Source of the DNA: an uncultured Lachnospiraceae bacterium
Lineage (GTDB): Bacteria > Bacillota > Clostridia > Lachnospirales > Lachnospiraceae
Assembly: GCA_947625775.1 (NCBI GenBank)
Contig: CANQPM010000011.1
Span: 1 to 64,000, forward strand
Length of the DNA: 64,000 nt
Reading direction: 5' to 3'
Part shown: one piece after another, positions 2,570 through 43,283 of the stretch
Layout of the letters: every line of letters begins with the position of its first letter
Numbering within the stretch: position 1 is the stretch's first letter
Notes under the pieces: generated by a model
What the model saw: only the letters and a program-made list of their open reading frames with translations
What the model was told of the DNA's origin: nothing
The model's database searches: none
Made by a program: the position numbers and the translations under genes

Positions 2570-2794
2570 GAAAGCAGCTAATATACTGTCTAAGCGCCTA
2601 GCCCGCGGAAGCTAGATTTTCTTATGCGGGGCAAGAACACCCAGGGGCAAAATTGGCACGGATGCCAATTTTAGCCGAGCGGCGACACGGACGTCGCCTC
2701 TCGGCGGCCCCGCCGCCATAAAACACCTAAATGCCCCGCATTAGAAAATCCAGCTTTCGCAGGCTCGCGCGCAGACAGTATATTAGCTGCTTTC
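2570..2794. repeat. 225-bp palindromic, multi-hairpin element
   Basis: The ends are perfect 22-bp inverted repeats (2570-2591 and 2773-2794). They continue inwards as an imperfect stem to a perfect 10-bp pair (ATGCGGGGCA 2624-2633 with TGCCCCGCAT 2732-2741). Inside are three more hairpins: AAAATTGGCA/TGCCAATTTT (2649-2672, 4-nt loop), a GC-rich stem 2674-2705 with one mismatch, and GGCGGC/GCCGCC (2703-2717), which competes with it. The transcript would fold as a long stem topped by a multi-branched head. It sits 28 bp beyond the ppk1 stop, is far more GC-rich than its surroundings, and shows no target duplication. It could be a MITE-like element, an RNA, or an elaborate terminator. Confidence 0.75.
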
Positions 2795-17590: not shown

Positions 17591-17678
17591 AAACATTTAG
17601 GAAGTCTTAGGCAGCGTCTTTTGCTGCCTTAGAGTTCCTTAATGTTTTTTCCTTAATGTTTTTTCCTTAATGTTTTTT
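17590..17678. repeat. CTTAG-type hairpin repeat plus three 14-bp tandem units
   Basis: A hairpin with AGGCAGC/GCTGCCT at its core is flanked by the arms TTAGGAAGTCTTAG and CTTAGAGTTCCTTAA (17596-17643). This is the same plan as repeats at 47866-47977 and 54531-54644. It is followed by CCTTAATGTTTTTT three times in tandem (17637-17650, 17651-17664, 17665-17678), ending exactly at the rnpB 3' end. On the minus strand it is the immediate trailer of RNase P RNA. Confidence 0.65.
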
Positions 17679-18049
17679 GCCGCAGCGATAAGCCGGGTTA
17701 TGTCGGCAAAGGCAAAAGCCTCCGCGAACGGTCATCTATCTAGGATTATCGTCACCGATAATCTCAAGCGACCTACCTGAAAGCAGGCCGGGCAAGCCTG
17801 TCGCTCTCTATTTGGTCTTGCTCCGAATGGGGTTTACATATGCCCTCCCCGTTACCGAGGATGCGGTAGTCTCTTACACTGCCTTTCCACCCTTACCAAA
17901 ACGCATGCAAAAGCATGCGTTTGGCGGTTTATTTCTGCTGCACTATCCTTAGAGTTGCCTCTACCGGACGTTATCCGGCATTCTGCCCTGTGGAGCCCGG
18001 ACTTTCCTCATCTCTGCAATGCACAAAGACGCGACCGTTTGCTGCGGCT
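17679..18049 (-). ncRNA. rnpB: RNase P RNA, bacterial class A
   Basis: The catalytic RNA that matures tRNA 5' ends. Read on the minus strand it has the conserved 5' block GAGGAAAGTCCGGGCTCC (near 18012-17995), the GGTAAGGGTGGAAAGGC stretch, the AGAGAGCGACAGGC region, and the 3' block ending in CATAACCCGGCTTATCG. P1 pairs GCCGCAGC (18048-18041) with GCTGCGGC (17686-17679). The length of about 371 nt is normal for type A. Exact ends are taken from P1. Confidence 0.95.
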
Positions 18050-18057
18050 GTACTATC

Positions 18058-37568: not shown

Positions 37569-38915
37569 TTATCTGACATCCACATTCTGCACCATAATCG
37601 GCTTCCCAGTCTTCCTATACATCTGCACCACGCTGCTCTGATCCCCATAATACCCGTCACTTACCACCACAGCCCTGTCCACATCAGCCGTATCATCATA
37701 TATCCCCCAGCCTTCAGCCTTGTACTCCTCAACAATCTTCTCGTACTCTTCCCAAAGCTTAGGTCTCATAGCTTCCACCGTACTCCTTATCAGCGGATGC
37801 GGTCTCCACAGCAGCGCCACTTCATCTTTATTTTCCTTAAAGATGCGAAATACATCTTTCATCTTCTCAAGCATCTTCTCATTATGCTCTAATAATGCCG
37901 CAATACTTGTATTATAAAAAACTATCTTCTTCCAACTCCCATCAGGTTTTTCAATTATTCGTCTCCATTCCTGTGGTATCTCCAAATCCTCTTTCCTCGT
38001 ATTCGCCACCTTGTCAAACTTAGGCGAACCAAGCCCGAGTATCTTCTCCTCCCATACCCTCCTGCTCTCTTCACCATACTTTTCGGAAAGCACTTTCACA
38101 TACACCTTCTTCATATTCTCCGACTGCACTATAACCTCGTCGGCATTCACTACTCCGGGCGTTGTGCAGAAATGCGCCATCCCTTGTATCGCTGCATCAT
38201 CATCAGGTGAAATTTCTCCCAACACAAAATACGGTATGTAAACCAGCTTGTCCGCATACTTCCTTAAATTCTCCGTATAAAAAAACGGCTCCACACTCGT
38301 CACGAGGTTATAATTATCATATGGATTATGGAAGTATATAACATCAGGATGCCTCTCCTCAAAATCATACTCCCTGTAATCCACTACAGGCACATCCTCC
38401 GGGTATTCCTCTATCTCATAATGCCACTCCTTCAGACTCCCGTCAGGATTCTTATCATAATATGGTATAGGCACAACATACGCGTCACATTCTGCATCGG
38501 CATCCGCCGCTCTCCAGACGCTCTCCAAACTGTCCCACATCGAAGCCTTATACGGTATAAACACAACCTCTTTCTTTACCGCAATATCATTCGCCACGCT
38601 GTTTGACACTCTCACTATCTGCTGCCTTAAAGTCTTGTAAGCTTTATTAGCACCGACTTCCCCGCCGTTCGAGAGCTTATCATAAATCTGATACGCCATC
38701 TCGCAGTATTCCTCAAGCATAGACACAGCTTTAAGACCATCTCCCTCGGACTTTTCTATCATAGTCCCGAGTTCAATCGCCTTTTCCTGACAATCCGCCA
38801 GCAGCATAAGGGCGCTCTGAACATCCTGTTTTTCGATGTCATTCCTTATTCGGTCATGCTCCTGCTCCAGCAGCTTTATTAAATTCTTAGCCAGTTCCTT
38901 CTGCGCCTTTCTCAT
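37569..38915 (-). CDS. CDP-glycerol glycerophosphotransferase-like (TagB/F-type) protein
   Basis: From ATG 38915 (GGGGTAAGG upstream) the protein has 448 residues. The first ~110 are helical with coiled-coil character (AQKELAKNLIKLLEQEHDRI). The remainder is GT-B-like: VVFIPYKASMWDSLESV, PDVIYFHNPYD, KLVYIPYFVLGE, EVIVQSENMKKVY, LGLGSPKFDKV, FYNTSIAALLEH, ALLWRPHPLIRST, and VSDGYYGDQSSVVQMY, the pattern of the C-terminal lobe of TagB/TagF teichoic-acid transferases. It may add polyol-phosphate, consistent with the CDP-pentitol genes of the locus. It is the first gene after the IS unit. Confidence 0.65.
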   Translation of the reverse strand: MRKAQKELAKNLIKLLEQEHDRIRNDIEKQDVQSALMLLADCQEKAIELGTMIEKSEGDGLKAVSMLEEYCEMAYQIYDKLSNGGEVGANKAYKTLRQQIVRVSNSVANDIAVKKEVVFIPYKASMWDSLESVWRAADADAECDAYVVPIPYYDKNPDGSLKEWHYEIEEYPEDVPVVDYREYDFEERHPDVIYFHNPYDNYNLVTSVEPFFYTENLRKYADKLVYIPYFVLGEISPDDDAAIQGMAHFCTTPGVVNADEVIVQSENMKKVYVKVLSEKYGEESRRVWEEKILGLGSPKFDKVANTRKEDLEIPQEWRRIIEKPDGSWKKIVFYNTSIAALLEHNEKMLEKMKDVFRIFKENKDEVALLWRPHPLIRSTVEAMRPKLWEEYEKIVEEYKAEGWGIYDDTADVDRAVVVSDGYYGDQSSVVQMYRKTGKPIMVQNVDVR

Positions 38916-39181
38916 AACCTTACCCCGATTTTTTGAAAGTCTTTCCTTACTTATATCATAAGGATTATCGCGACGCACTCGGCGATGCCGCATACGTCTG
39001 TGAAAGCAATGCCTTCACTTCGCTCCGCGTTTTTTCAGGCCGCGGTCATGGCATACGCGAAAACTATCCTGTTCAGCTAATGCCGACTTGTTACCTGTGG
39101 GTTTCCCCATTTATTAAAGCATCTTGCCGTTGATCCTTTCGGTAAAGCAGCCGTTGGCAGCTTATTCTTCGGTTTGATGAC
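38916..39181 (-). other. Structured trailer of the TnpB-like gene; candidate guide RNA region
   Basis: This 266-nt non-coding stretch directly follows the tnpB-like stop and carries several hairpins on the minus strand (for example GTGAA/TTCAC around GGCATTGCT near 39002-39022, and a GC-rich stem near 38970-38995). In IS605/IS607-type elements the tnpB 3' end and its trailer form the reRNA (omegaRNA), whose last bases come from flanking DNA. If so here, the guide would lie near 38916-38945. This is positional inference; no consensus was matched. A GGGGTAAGG site for the next gene lies at its end. Confidence 0.35.
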
Positions 39182-40528
39182 TCAATCATTTTTTTGATTA
39201 AACTTCTTTTCGATATTTTTGGCGGAATTTAAAGCTATCGTAGTCTCATTGCCGCATACTTCACAGATAAATTTGTCTTTCCGTCTTTTTCCCTGTCCGC
39301 CGCATACACAGCACACACTTCCCGTTCCCTTTGAATTAATCTCTGTGAGTGTTATGGAATTGACCTGACATTTAAATGCCAGCCGCTGTCTGACATATGC
39401 GCTGAAACTTCTGCTCATTTTCAGGTTCGCAGTTCTTGAATAGGACTTCGTCCTGTTTTTTTGTACAAGCTTCGTCACAACAATGTGCGAGGGTTTTTCC
39501 GTCTGCAGCATCCTGTTGATTTCCGTATTGATAAAGTCCTGTGTCTTTGCCCTTCTCCGCGCTTTCATGCTGTCGTACTTTTTTCTGCCGAGATTATTGC
39601 GCTCAATATTTGCGGCTTTGTCATTTTTTCCATCCGCCGCCTGTTTCTCGTAATTTCTCACAAGAGCGGCGCGCTCCCTGTTTTTCAAGTCCAGACGCAC
39701 AGTTTCCGTATATACTATGCTTTCAAGGTCTGCTCCATAAATATTTCCGTTGGACAGAGTAATCATATCCCTGTTCCCGATATATATGTACACTGTATTG
39801 GTGTAATCATCATGCTGTTTTATCCTTGTTTCAACGGGCACTGTCAGAAACGCCTGCTGCCCTTTAAGCGTAATAAGTATCTGCCTGTCAGATATCCTGT
39901 TATCCTTAAGCGGCAGAAACACCCTCTGTCTCGGCGTCCTGCTGACAAGATATATACCGCCATCCTTATATTTATAGCCATTCGGCGATACTTTAAATGA
40001 GTCCATGTTCTCAGTTTTAGGAACGCTTATATATTTTCGCACAAGCCTGCGGATCAGGTTGTTGCATTTTTTCACGTTTATTTCAAGATCTTTGGAATTA
40101 TTTGGCATTTCATAATCTTCACCGTTTAAAACAGCCGAAAATACGCCATTCATCTTAAACACGGTACATATATAAACTCTGTCGTCATGCGTGAGGTTCT
40201 CATTTGCATTAATCAGGTCGATTATTTTATTTTTTACTATGCTCCAATTGCTCTTGATATCTGTTACCGCGTCAGCCACGGCAAGCTCATAATATACAAC
40301 CGGAAGATCAAGCTGCTGTCTTAAGCCGCATGCGCGCATCTCATTAAGGACAGTATATACAGGGGTAAGCCTGTTGACATTATGTATGCCCGAATATCGC
40401 CGATAAACATAATTTTTAACCTTTGAATAGTCCTGCGCGATTCCTTTTAAAAATGAAACCTTCTCTTTCGTCAGCACGCAACTGTGCTGTACCAGCGTCT
40501 TTGTTACGGTATTTTTATCCGGCATCAT
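39182..40528 (-). CDS. TnpB-family protein, apparently nuclease-dead
   Basis: The 448-residue protein has TnpB length and order: an N-terminal REC/wedge-like part, a RuvC core, and a zinc ribbon with C406/C409 and C422/C425 (CCVC, CEVC). Aligning by eye with active TnpB, all three RuvC acids are replaced: the IDLG site reads IYIG (Tyr249) before MITLSNG, the IVLEDL site reads IVVTKL (Thr352), and the ADVNAA site reads IALNSA (Ala432). The frame is undamaged. It is therefore unlikely to cut DNA but may still bind RNA and target DNA, like the TldR repressors known elsewhere. GGGAG precedes the ATG. Beside it lies a serine recombinase. Confidence 0.75.
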   Translation of the reverse strand: MMPDKNTVTKTLVQHSCVLTKEKVSFLKGIAQDYSKVKNYVYRRYSGIHNVNRLTPVYTVLNEMRACGLRQQLDLPVVYYELAVADAVTDIKSNWSIVKNKIIDLINANENLTHDDRVYICTVFKMNGVFSAVLNGEDYEMPNNSKDLEINVKKCNNLIRRLVRKYISVPKTENMDSFKVSPNGYKYKDGGIYLVSRTPRQRVFLPLKDNRISDRQILITLKGQQAFLTVPVETRIKQHDDYTNTVYIYIGNRDMITLSNGNIYGADLESIVYTETVRLDLKNRERAALVRNYEKQAADGKNDKAANIERNNLGRKKYDSMKARRRAKTQDFINTEINRMLQTEKPSHIVVTKLVQKNRTKSYSRTANLKMSRSFSAYVRQRLAFKCQVNSITLTEINSKGTGSVCCVCGGQGKRRKDKFICEVCGNETTIALNSAKNIEKKFNQKND

Positions 40529-40626
40529 TTCCTGCTCCCATCAACTATTCCATTCGGCAAAAAAGTATACATTTTGGTTTGTAAAATTTTGGATACATAA
40601 TATATTAAATGTGCACAAAAAAAATA

Positions 40627-40655
40627 TTGACTTACCCCTGATTTTTTTGTAAAAT
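40627..40655 (+). promoter_or_regulatory. Strong plus-strand promoter between tnpB-like and recombinase genes
   Basis: TTGACT (40627-40632) and TAAAAT (40650-40655) are 17 bp apart on the plus strand, opposite to both flanking genes. The expected start is near 40661. Confidence 0.5.
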
Positions 40656-40660
40656 AGCAT

Positions 40661-40724
40661 TAAACTTTTAGAATTTTTACCGATATATAATTTAGGCTAA
40701 AATATATACTTTTTAGCCTTTTTT
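40661..40724 (+). ncRNA. Candidate 64-nt RNA, antisense to the recombinase 3' end
   Basis: The promoter just upstream is followed after only about 35 nt by an intrinsic terminator: GGCTAAAA (40695-40702), 8-nt loop, TTTTAGCC (40711-40718), then six T (40719-40724). There is no ORF. The hairpin covers the recombinase stop codon (40713-40715). It works as a U-tailed terminator only on the plus strand. Confidence 0.4.
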
Positions 40725-41318
40725 ATATTCACCCGCCCGTTTCCTAAAGCTGGTCGTCGGCATGCCACATTCTTTCGCTGCCGCTTCATTTGTGAGCAGA
40801 CCAGCATTCCATCTTTTGCACACATCATAAAAATTCTCAGGCAGCGCCTTTGGCGGTCTTCCAAAGCGCACACCGCGCTCCTTTGCCGCCGCGATTCCTT
40901 CCGCCTGCCTTTGCTTTATTGTGCCGCGCTCATTTTCCGCCACATACGAGAGCAGCGCAAGTACAAGATCGCTTATAAATGTTCCCAACAGATTTTTTTC
41001 ATGCCGCGTGTCGAGCAGCGGCATCTCAATAACGGAGAGGTCAGCCCTCTTTTCCTTTGTAATAATCCTCCACTGCTCTATAATCTCCTCATAATTTCTT
41101 CCCAGCCTGTCTATCGACTTTATGTAAATTAAATCTCCCTCCTTGATTTTTTTTATCATTTTTTGGTACTGCGGCCGATTAAAATCCTTCCCTGACAGCT
41201 TATCCATATAAATATTTTTCCTCGGCACTTTCATGTCAAGCATTGCAAGCATCTGTCTGTCCTCATTCTGCTCCTTTGTGGAAACACGCACATACCCATA
41301 AACACTTCCCATTTTCAT
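40713..41318 (-). CDS. Small serine recombinase (resolvase/invertase type)
   Basis: The 201-residue protein has the catalytic start VYGYVRVSTKEQNEDRQ (Ser of RVST), SGKDFNRPQYQKMI, GDLIYIKSIDRLGRNYEEI (the Arg-rich IDRLGR core), and a long E helix with LALLSYVAENERGTIKQRQAEGI. It ends with a Hin-type helix-turn-helix (NEAAAKECGMPTTSFRKR). The order (catalytic domain first, HTH last) is that of Tn3 resolvases and invertases and is the reverse of IS607 TnpA. AAGGAG lies 3 nt before the first ATG and 9 nt before a second at 41312, which may be the true start. It probably mobilises or inverts the unit containing the tnpB-like gene. Confidence 0.9.
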   Translation of the reverse strand: MKMGSVYGYVRVSTKEQNEDRQMLAMLDMKVPRKNIYMDKLSGKDFNRPQYQKMIKKIKEGDLIYIKSIDRLGRNYEEIIEQWRIITKEKRADLSVIEMPLLDTRHEKNLLGTFISDLVLALLSYVAENERGTIKQRQAEGIAAAKERGVRFGRPPKALPENFYDVCKRWNAGLLTNEAAAKECGMPTTSFRKRAGEYKKG

Positions 41319-41403
41319 CTTCTCCTTTTATTCTACTTAGACAATTGCGAAGCTCTCTTTTGGGTGTAGGATTTAGAAAGACCTTCACAATCACCTGCAT
41401 TTC

Positions 41404-41457
41404 CCAGAAAAAGCAGGAATAAGTTATGCAATAAATAACTTACTTCTGCTTTTCTGG
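41404..41457. repeat. 54-bp near-perfect palindrome at the edge of the mobile unit
   Basis: CCAGAAAAAGCAG (41404-41416) pairs with CTGCTTTTCTGG, and AATAAGTTAT pairs with ATAACTTA on the inner side, around a short AT loop. It lies about 85 bp upstream of the recombinase. It could be a recombination site, an element end, or a hairpin terminator; there is no clear T-run. Confidence 0.5.
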
Positions 41458-41515
41458 TATTATTATAATCCAAGATGAAACAACATCGCTGTCATGCCTG
41501 CCGCAAAAAACGGCA

Positions 41516-41547
41516 CAAAAAAACAGCGCCGAAAAATACGGCACTGT
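41516..41547 (-). terminator. Intrinsic terminator after the nucleoside kinase gene
   Basis: On the minus strand ACAGTGCCG (41547-41539) pairs with CGGCGCTGT (41531-41523), with one G-T pair, followed by seven U (41522-41516). It lies 32 bp past the stop at 41579. The plus strand also has CTTTTT after it. Confidence 0.75.
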
Positions 41548-41578
41548 CTTTTTATCAATTATTTAATTCATATTTAAT

Positions 41579-43261
41579 TTAGACCTTAAAGCAGCTCCCG
41601 CCGACAAACTCTCTGACGATTGAGTTCATCGGCAGATCCTCTGTGCTGACGCCGAGGAAGTAGCTTAAGAATTTAAGCAGCCTCACCGCCTCAAAATATT
41701 CAGGCTCATCCGGGCGTATATTGTAGAGCAGCGGCTCAGCGTACTGTTTGAGCACCGCAAGCTCATATATCAGCGCAGAGTTAAACAGCGCATCCGCGCT
41801 CTCCTGAAACGGGAAAATATTTTCCGTCTCGCCCTTGCGCACTGACGGCCACATCTGTATGGTGCGCTTTGCCGTCGCCCCGCGTGTCCTTGCGTCACGC
41901 ACAAGGCGGCGCAAAAGCCTGCCGTCCGTGGTCGGTATGCGGTTGTGCTCGTCAATGTTCAGCGTGGTAAGCGCGCTGATGTAAATTTTGTACTTGCTCT
42001 CTGCAGGCAGCGCATACGACATCTTATCGTTAAGCCCGTGTATGCCCTCTATGACAAGCACGTCATCAGGGCCAAGCTGCTTGAAATTGCCTTTAAACTC
42101 GCGTCTTCCTGTCACAAAGTTAAATGTCGGCAGCTCCACTCTCTTGCCCGCAAGCAAATCGCACATATCCGTGTTGAATTTCTCCACGTCTATCGCCTCA
42201 AGACACTCAAAGTCGTAGTCGCCGTTTGGCTGGCGCGGTGTTTTCTCACGGTCTACAAAATAATCGTCTACAGGTATCGGGTGCGGCACAAGCCCGTGTG
42301 TCCTAAGCTGCACCGACAGCCTGTGTGAAAAGGTAGTCTTTCCCGACGAGGAAGGACCTGCAATCATGACAAATTTTATGCCGCCGCGCGAAACTATATC
42401 AGAGGCAATCTCGCTTATGCGCCTCTCCTGCAGCGCCTCCTGCACAAGCACAAGCTCATTAAACTTGCCCATCCTAATCTGGTCGTTCAAATCCGCAACC
42501 GTGTCAATGCCAAGCTTTAAGCCCCAGTCAGAAGCAATTTCCATTGATTTAAAAAGCTTTGGCAGAGGCTTAAACTCATCGACCGTCTCAGGCGTCTCCC
42601 TGTATGGAAGTACCAGCATAAAGCCATCTTCATATTTTTTCAAATCAAAATATTTCACGTAGCCCGTGCTCGGCAGCATATATCCGTAATAATAATCATA
42701 ATAGCCGTCAAGATTGTAGACGTTGACCGTGGAGCTGCCGCGGTATTTGAAAAGCTTTACCTTATCATACATCTTCTGGCTCTCAAAAAGCTCATCGGCC
42801 TCGTCTATCGGCATGCTTTTTTTGATGATAAGCAAGTCCTTGTCTACGTATTCCTGCATTTTCGCCTTTATCTTTTCTATAAGCTCATCCGTGACCTCAA
42901 AATCACCCGCCTTAGAGCAGTAGTAGCCGTTGCCTATCGAAAACTCCATTTTAATCTTCTCGACCTTATCAGCGCCCACTACCTCGCTTATCGCCTTCAT
43001 AAGTATAAGCGTAGCCGTGCGGTTGTAGGTTTTTGCCCCCGTGTCGTCGGACAGGGTAAGGAACTCCACCGTACAGTCCCTGTCCACCTTCTTGAAAAGC
43101 TCCATTATTTTGCCGTTCCTCACGGCGAGCGCTATCTGATGCTCGTATTCCTTCTGGTAAATGCCCGCTATCTCGCCAAAGGTAACTCCCGCGGGAAATT
43201 CACGCGTCTTTCCCTTGAACGTTACCTGATAGCTGCTCTTTTTATTATTGTTCAAATCCAT
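41579..43261 (-). CDS. Nucleoside (uridine-type) kinase with TGS/ThrRS-like N-terminus
   Basis: About 560 residues. The first ~60 are TGS-like (VTFKGKTREFPAGVTFGEIA). A region resembling the second domain of threonyl-tRNA synthetase follows (about 60-280, with TLILMKAISEVVG). The C-terminal half is a uridine-kinase-type P-loop domain: VMIAGPSSSGKTTFSHRL near 300, IPVDDYFVDRE, VLVIEGIHGLN, and RRLVRDARTRG. Phosphorylation of uridine or another nucleoside is the usual assignment for this fusion in Clostridia. ATG 43261 is preferred because the GTG at 43273 abuts its AAAGGGG site. Confidence 0.85.
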   Translation of the reverse strand: MDLNNNKKSSYQVTFKGKTREFPAGVTFGEIAGIYQKEYEHQIALAVRNGKIMELFKKVDRDCTVEFLTLSDDTGAKTYNRTATLILMKAISEVVGADKVEKIKMEFSIGNGYYCSKAGDFEVTDELIEKIKAKMQEYVDKDLLIIKKSMPIDEADELFESQKMYDKVKLFKYRGSSTVNVYNLDGYYDYYYGYMLPSTGYVKYFDLKKYEDGFMLVLPYRETPETVDEFKPLPKLFKSMEIASDWGLKLGIDTVADLNDQIRMGKFNELVLVQEALQERRISEIASDIVSRGGIKFVMIAGPSSSGKTTFSHRLSVQLRTHGLVPHPIPVDDYFVDREKTPRQPNGDYDFECLEAIDVEKFNTDMCDLLAGKRVELPTFNFVTGRREFKGNFKQLGPDDVLVIEGIHGLNDKMSYALPAESKYKIYISALTTLNIDEHNRIPTTDGRLLRRLVRDARTRGATAKRTIQMWPSVRKGETENIFPFQESADALFNSALIYELAVLKQYAEPLLYNIRPDEPEYFEAVRLLKFLSYFLGVSTEDLPMNSIVREFVGGSCFKV

Positions 43262-43283
43262 CTCTGCTGACACCCCTTTATCT

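Follow-up and report, generated by a model that had tools for sequence, protein, structure and literature searches.

Nuclease-dead homologues of TnpB, called TldRs, have targets such as oppF besides flagellin genes, and a fliC-associated TldR of Enterobacter prophages was reportedly described by Wiegand in 2024. The csrA-associated TldRs of Oscillibacter and Flavonifractor (Walker et al. 2026; PMC13418256) have their target inside fliC open reading frames (ORFs) and hin mostly immediately upstream, and promoter inversions were seen in related Flavonifractor loci, as far as the accessible part of that paper goes. The same part reports a guide seed at positions 1–6 for another TldR, and presents the Enterobacter fliC-TldR as phage-borne and promoter-targeting, with the resident flagellin paralogue silenced while the linked paralogue takes over. 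In the Salmonella hin-fljBA system, a promoter is inverted by Hin and a repressor made together with one isoform shuts off the other, in that FljA binds the fliC promoter directly (PMC9368917, accessible part).

Here we analysed a window of 64,000 nucleotides, the first 64 kb of contig C11 in the 3.75 Mb genome (G000) of an uncultured Lachnospiraceae bacterium. Its tldR locus has in common with the csrA-TldRs of PMC13418256 (accessible part) a dead TnpB, a downstream guide RNA (gRNA), an upstream hin, a putative short inverton with a FliA-type promoter and a predicted target within an ORF. Unlike in those loci, the partner and the predicted target resemble CDP-glycerol glycerophosphotransferase (GPT), not flagellin, csrA is absent, and the matched site belongs to a paralogue of the linked gene that is itself unlinked. 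Flagellin genes are the TldR targets given in the accessible part of PMC13418256, whereas the window points to a surface phosphopolyol-transferase-like enzyme. As in the Enterobacter prophages, a resident paralogue would be silenced in favour of the linked one, but with a surface-sugar enzyme, a site within the ORF and an inverton. By analogy with Salmonella, TldR would correspond to FljA, the linked GPT to FljB and the unlinked GPT to FliC; in contrast to that system, the window has an RNA-guided protein and a sugar enzyme, and its inversion is a predicted one. It also differs from the ISFba1 and ISDra2 TnpB nucleases, since its TldR is without the catalytic acids and no transposase gene was noticed beside it.

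We propose, with a probability of about 0.75 by our own estimate, that the hin–inverton–tldR–gRNA–GPT cassette is an RNA-guided switch between two GPT isoforms. TldRs and the hin-csrA-tldR arrangement are already published; GPT as a partner or target of TldR was not found in the literature searched, in which PMC13418256 was the sole relevant paper.

Organization of the locus

The order on the minus strand is hin-like recombinase, tldR, guide-RNA region and GPT. The hin-like gene (40713..41318, minus strand) encodes a serine recombinase of 201 aa, and tldR (39182..40528, minus strand) a TnpB-like protein of 448 aa. The gRNA scaffold lies at 38967..39175 (minus strand; 5' end approximate), directly followed by the guide core AATCCTTATGATA at 38954..38966 (minus strand). 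The linked GPT (37569..38915, minus strand) matches PF04464 (E 2e-5; 24.2 bits, cut-off 22.1) and has no PDB relative by sequence at E 0.1. Its start is probably at 38915; the longest ORF (to 38993) would run into the guide. Farther along the minus strand are glycan genes for a polysaccharide pyruvyl transferase, an IspD-like cytidylyltransferase, a zinc alcohol dehydrogenase, an FkbM-type methyltransferase and a DUF4422 protein. Elsewhere in the window, a TwoAYGGAY RNA (2600–2765, plus strand) and a class A RNase P RNA (17673–18050, minus strand) were found.

The closest relative in the named collection is the uncultured Lachnospiraceae MAG Lapin-023 (L225), with a tldR protein 97% identical. 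In the comparison with the 97% relative (L055; window 37569–43273), dS is 0.093 for tldR, 0.28 for hin and 0.25 for GPT, against 1.13 for the uridine-kinase-like gene beyond hin. The difference between the cassette genes (0.09–0.28) and the adjoining gene suggests a recent exchange in which the cassette passed as a whole from one genome to another.

A dead TnpB under selection

In the window protein, the RuvC Asp, Glu and Asp are replaced by Y249, T352 and A432, which confirms what the earlier note had read by eye, and these catalytic columns are free of acids in all 38 aligned members. The 448-codon frame and the four zinc-ribbon cysteines are intact, also as noted before, and the cysteines are invariant among the aligned members. 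Homology to TnpB is seen in both sequence and fold: the AlphaFold2 model (pLDDT 87.7, pTM 0.62) has its best structural alignments with TnpB and Fanzor2, while the NCBIfam guided_TnpB match is below the cut-off. PADLOC gave weak Cas12f/Cas12u matches only.

A relocated catalytic Glu, 7 residues before the zinc ribbon, is described for TnpB in the accessible part of PMC10711439, and the earlier note had considered acidic residues supplied from other positions. The corresponding position 399 is never acidic among the 38 aligned members. The conserved E396 (34 of 38) was rejected as a candidate, since its distance to the zinc ribbon is 10 residues and not 7. The Asp-Glu-Asp triad of an active TnpB nuclease is thus present neither with the canonical nor with the relocated Glu.

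The ratio dN/dS of tldR against the 97% relative is about 0.13 (0.0125/0.093), and the frames and zinc ribbon are retained among homologues at about 50% divergence. These comparisons support a dead TnpB (TldR) maintained under selection and not decaying, as had been suggested. The locus has these features of a TldR: RuvC acids lost with the frame kept, a downstream guide RNA as judged by sequence and covariation, and a stable non-transposon partner gene.

Homologous loci

A search for tldR homologues in 144 related genomes gave matches in 29 genomes at 50 places, 49 of which were examined (the 50th, G036:C449, is a fragment and was left out). The identity to the window TldR is at least 49% in 35 loci and 31–36% in the other 14. 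In 42 of the 49 loci (48 with enough sequence), tldR is followed by GPT on the same strand; one of the 7 others is too near a contig end, and two (L050 and L079) carry GPT upstream. The earlier note had looked to homologues sharing both the three substitutions and the recombinase neighbour: the loss of all three acids holds in 38 of 38 homologues, but of the 37 loci for which 900 nt or more upstream are available, only 8 have hin there, and none was seen in the other 29.

A second set consists of 80 of 238 relatives taken from named genomes and has many records in common with the first set. Where there is enough room, 52 of 72 loci have GPT and 4 of 64 have hin, and guides could be read by pattern in 33 of the 80. 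No csrA was found in the ORFs of the first-set loci, and neither csrA nor fliC lies within 3 kb of the window tldR. Among the 80 second-set relatives, csrA occurs in L277 only (L277:3216-7099, MAG iMGMC-341), with the order hin-csrA-tldR-gRNA-GPT, which by its gene order connects the csrA-TldRs already published with those linked to GPT.

As a side observation, the GPT at L146 (G017:C6:6226-7596), which shares 86% identity with the linked GPT of the window, contains two stop codons. The sequence examined there has no tldR, and the locus may be a remnant of the cassette.

Guide RNA

The interval between tldR and GPT contains a conserved region ending in a pseudoknot (UCGC with GCGA, in the window just 5' of the guide), directly followed by AAY-NNN-TAY-GAY. 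Seven pseudoknot registers were tried, and the three-pair one and its four-pair extension stood out. In the 35 loci with at least 49% identity, 105 of 105 pairs are formed in the former (3 per locus, counting G-U; the highest of 2000 permutations is 88) and 129 of 140 in the latter (permutation maximum 113), with several compensatory pair types. The conserved scaffold and this covariation support the guide-RNA region that had been suspected downstream of tldR, and the guide start is fixed by the pseudoknot position.

A guide start after TATGAT was rejected, because the aligned scaffolds, the GPT match and the pseudoknot place the start 12 nt earlier; with the start at that point, no second match was found in the genome even when up to 3 mismatches were allowed, and 332 kb of the genome's own sequence gave no convincing one. 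Rfam gave no match at gathering score in the tldR-gRNA region of the window, and over 13 loci only five low-scoring unrelated matches (E up to 5).

Guide match to an unlinked GPT

The guide core is found exactly twice in the 3.75 Mb genome, in the gRNA and in an unlinked GPT gene at G000:C29:26952-26964 (plus strand), where 0.25 occurrences are expected by chance and the reversed-pattern control gives 0. The unlinked GPT is an 846-aa ORF on C29, with the site about 588 nt into it; it has no Pfam match at 0.001 and is called GPT because it is 49% identical to the linked one. Downstream are a cytidylyltransferase/oxidoreductase fusion and, farther on, a LicD gene, and such neighbours would fit phosphopolyol or phosphocholine decoration. 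Within the GPT ORFs, the guide matches the codons for H-N-(P/A)-Y-D-N. Since it has the sequence of the coding strand, the guide RNA would pair with the template strand. At the site of the linked GPT, guide position 6 is mismatched and the preceding bases are TCCAT, not TACAT. We infer from these matches that the GPT site is the target of the TldR guide.

In order to compare, we paired 35 guides with one chosen tldR-free GPT per genome (23 genomes, some of which have several GPTs). No tldR or hin lies within the examined stretches of these 23 unlinked-GPT loci. The homologous site is the best 15-nt match in the chosen locus for 34 of 35 guides (4 tied elsewhere). Numbers of identical guides (of 35) at positions 1–15 are 35, 35, 29, 28, 34, 10, 35, 35, 34, 35, 35, 33, 31, 28 and 24, and at positions 16–20 they are 13, 8, 12, 23 and 21; position 6 thus matches the unlinked target in just 10 of 35. 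These counts overstate independence because guides and targets are kin by descent, with 14 distinct guide 13-mers and 4 distinct target 13-mers. The matches of L063, L069 and L073 (11 of 15) are no better than, or at most half a base from, those of shuffled guides. The exception is L082, whose guide matches best (14 of 15) at a place upstream of the L149 GPT that may be what remains of a gRNA end. For 29 of the 35 guides the linked site could also be compared (six loci have no readable cis site), and over 13 nt the unlinked GPT matches better in 24, equally in 3 and worse in 2.

Guide position 4 (mostly C or G; Pro or Ala codon) tracks the host target in 28 of 35 guides, with a permutation mean of 16.5 and 0 of 3000 permutations reaching 28. 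Positions 1–13 together match the host target in 409 of 455 cases (permutation mean 395.7; 8 of 5000), and no host-tracking excess was detected among the 35 guides at position 6 or at other positions besides 4. TACAT precedes 22 of 26 unlinked sites vs 6 of 29 linked sites in the first set (p 2e-6), a count that includes the unlinked GPTs of L208, L199 and L172, which stand outside the per-genome pairing.

A held-out set of 11 further genomes gave 10 guides readable by pattern (L226, L269 and L276 are not counted). There, TACAT showed no significant enrichment, being found at 7 of 12 unlinked vs 6 of 16 linked sites (p 0.45). Of the 9 held-out guides with an unlinked GPT, 7 have their best 14-nt match in the unlinked gene, including three at 14/14 with TACAT, and 2 match a tldR-linked GPT better. 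No target was found in the 31–36% clade, where 10 of its 14 loci were tried.

The window's own genome also contains a second tldR (G000:C12:23922-25256; L002/L050), 55% identical to the first. In this case GPT precedes tldR, and an Rpn-type gene (assigned by eye) comes after tldR. No convincing target was found for the guide AATACTTATGATGAT, which differs from the unlinked GPT at two positions.

Recombinase and inverted repeats

The PDB relatives of the hin protein are Sin/Tn552 bin3, gamma-delta resolvase and DNA invertase. As in the Hin type, a Resolvase catalytic domain (E 3e-26) is N-terminal in a protein of about 200 aa. There is no Pfam match to a helix-turn-helix in it, and a C-terminal one is expected from family and length only. 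IS607 TnpA was rejected, given the catalytic domain first and an NCBIfam IS607 score of 22.8 bits vs a cut-off of 110, and the earlier assignment to the resolvase/invertase type is supported, the recombinase being of the Hin/Sin type.

Between hin and tldR, a repeat search found inverted repeats of 20 nt, 90% complementary, with 123 nt between the arms. The hin-side arm (40699..40718), a hix-like site, overlaps the hin stop codon, and the tldR-side arm is at 40556..40575. Inside the repeats is a FliA/SigD-like promoter, TAAA-N15-CCGATAT (40661..40686, plus strand), which faces away from tldR as assembled (OFF). The strict promoter pattern has 2 matches on both strands of 332 kb of the genome and a looser one 17, and the promoter-like sequence resembles those near csrA-fliC units of the same genome.

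All 8 first-set loci with hin have repeats at the same place. The SigD-like sequence is found in the window and L055 only, both with the promoter pointing away from tldR; in L096 and L100 a sigma-A-like TTGCAA/TATAAT pair takes its place. Between L096 and L100, which belong to the second clade, the segment is inverted with the hin side collinear, which is comparative evidence for inversion in those loci and not in the window locus. A Hin-driven inversion may likewise take place in the window. The position of the repeats and promoter between the two genes makes it more likely that the recombinase switches tldR, and control probably runs from the recombinase to TldR, not the reverse.

Proposed switch and alternative explanations

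The dead RuvC, the conserved gRNA region, the guide–target match, the mismatch in cis and the repeats with the promoter-like sequence are read directly from the DNA, and a switch built on them would work as follows. With the promoter segment facing tldR (ON), the SigD (flagellar-class) promoter would drive tldR, the guide RNA and the linked GPT. After processing of the RNA, the TldR-gRNA complex would bind the TACAT-flanked site about 590 nt inside the unlinked GPT ORF (C29), and pairing of the guide with the template strand would block transcription of this gene. The linked GPT would be spared by the mismatch in its site and the lack of TACAT. In the OFF state, as assembled, tldR would be silent and the unlinked GPT expressed. 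The outcome would be a reversible exchange of two phosphopolyol-transferase-like isoforms, which may decorate the cell surface.

If this is true, the inverton beside tldR would place an RNA-guided transcription factor under phase variation. As a short guide matches the paralogue and the linked copy is mismatched, RNA-guided repression is directly testable here, and the 35 guides with host targets are natural data on the guide length, flanking motif and mismatch tolerance of TldRs, including position 6. With less confidence than in the switch itself, though still on the favourable side, we regard these loci as a family of mobile switch cassettes, mostly of Lachnospiraceae, each bringing its own GPT isoform and a TldR guided to the resident isoform. 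Arrival or inversion of the cassette would then swap the surface decoration, seed and flank mismatches would provide the escape in cis, and guides would track the resident allele. Such cassettes would amount to allelic exclusion of a surface-sugar gene that is programmable through an RNA guide and controlled by a recombinase.

It is very unlikely that TldR represses a flagellin gene like the fliC- and csrA-associated TldRs, with the GPT similarity being a relic. The own genome has 11 Flagellin_N and 7 CsrA matches, the promoter is SigD-like, csrA-TldRs hit fliC ORFs, and L277 combines hin-csrA-tldR with GPT, all of which would suit such a role. However, the downstream region in the window has no exact match of at least 12 nt to the flagellin/csrA loci L032–L049, the 13-nt guide core is limited to the gRNA and GPT, and the first-set ORFs lack csrA. 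Counts of TATGATAA also led us to reject flagellin as the target: both strands of 270 kb of flagellin loci contain it 10 times, 83 kb of GPT loci 26 times. A complex that binds its own linked GPT and so tunes the cassette would explain why a degenerate site is present there and why L062 and L071 match this gene better than the unlinked one. We consider such autoregulation very unlikely, as the linked GPT matches less well in 24 of 29 comparisons, the sites of L062 and L071 follow CAC, not CAT, and the window has its mismatch at position 6, within the reported 1–6 seed, although this position is loose at unlinked sites too.

The guide could also be a fossil of an ancestral TnpB inserted at the GPT codon, the protein now having another role or decaying. 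An insertion there would yield such a guide, and position 6 is barely conserved and the target 13-mers number only four; but the survival of the frames and the zinc ribbon at about 50% divergence, a dN/dS of about 0.13, the conservation of 13–15 nt with a fall at the next positions, and the co-variation at position 4 make this quite improbable. The earlier note itself had suggested RNA-guided targeting or control of the serine recombinase. In its favour, 8 of the 37 loci whose upstream sequence is long enough have hin next to tldR. We found no support for it and hold it to be highly improbable: the other exact copy of the guide core is in the GPT paralogue, neither inside hin nor close to it, hin is not seen at most tldR loci, and the repeats sit between hin and tldR. 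The switch between two GPT isoforms is the reading that we prefer.

Inverted repeats at flagellin units of the same genome

Four csrA-fliC upstream regions of the own genome (on C9, C14 and C8; L106:7459-8440, L107:9478-10435, L110:7390-8374 and L111:10831-11831) have inverted repeats of 30–32 nt about 900–940 nt apart around a SigD-like promoter. In L106 and L110, the repeats also enclose an ORF resembling a tyrosine recombinase (by eye). The promoter faces csrA in C14 and away from it in C9 and C8, and the strand of the recombinase changes along with it. By their sequence arrangement, these regions are apparently self-inverting phase switches for several flagellin copies.
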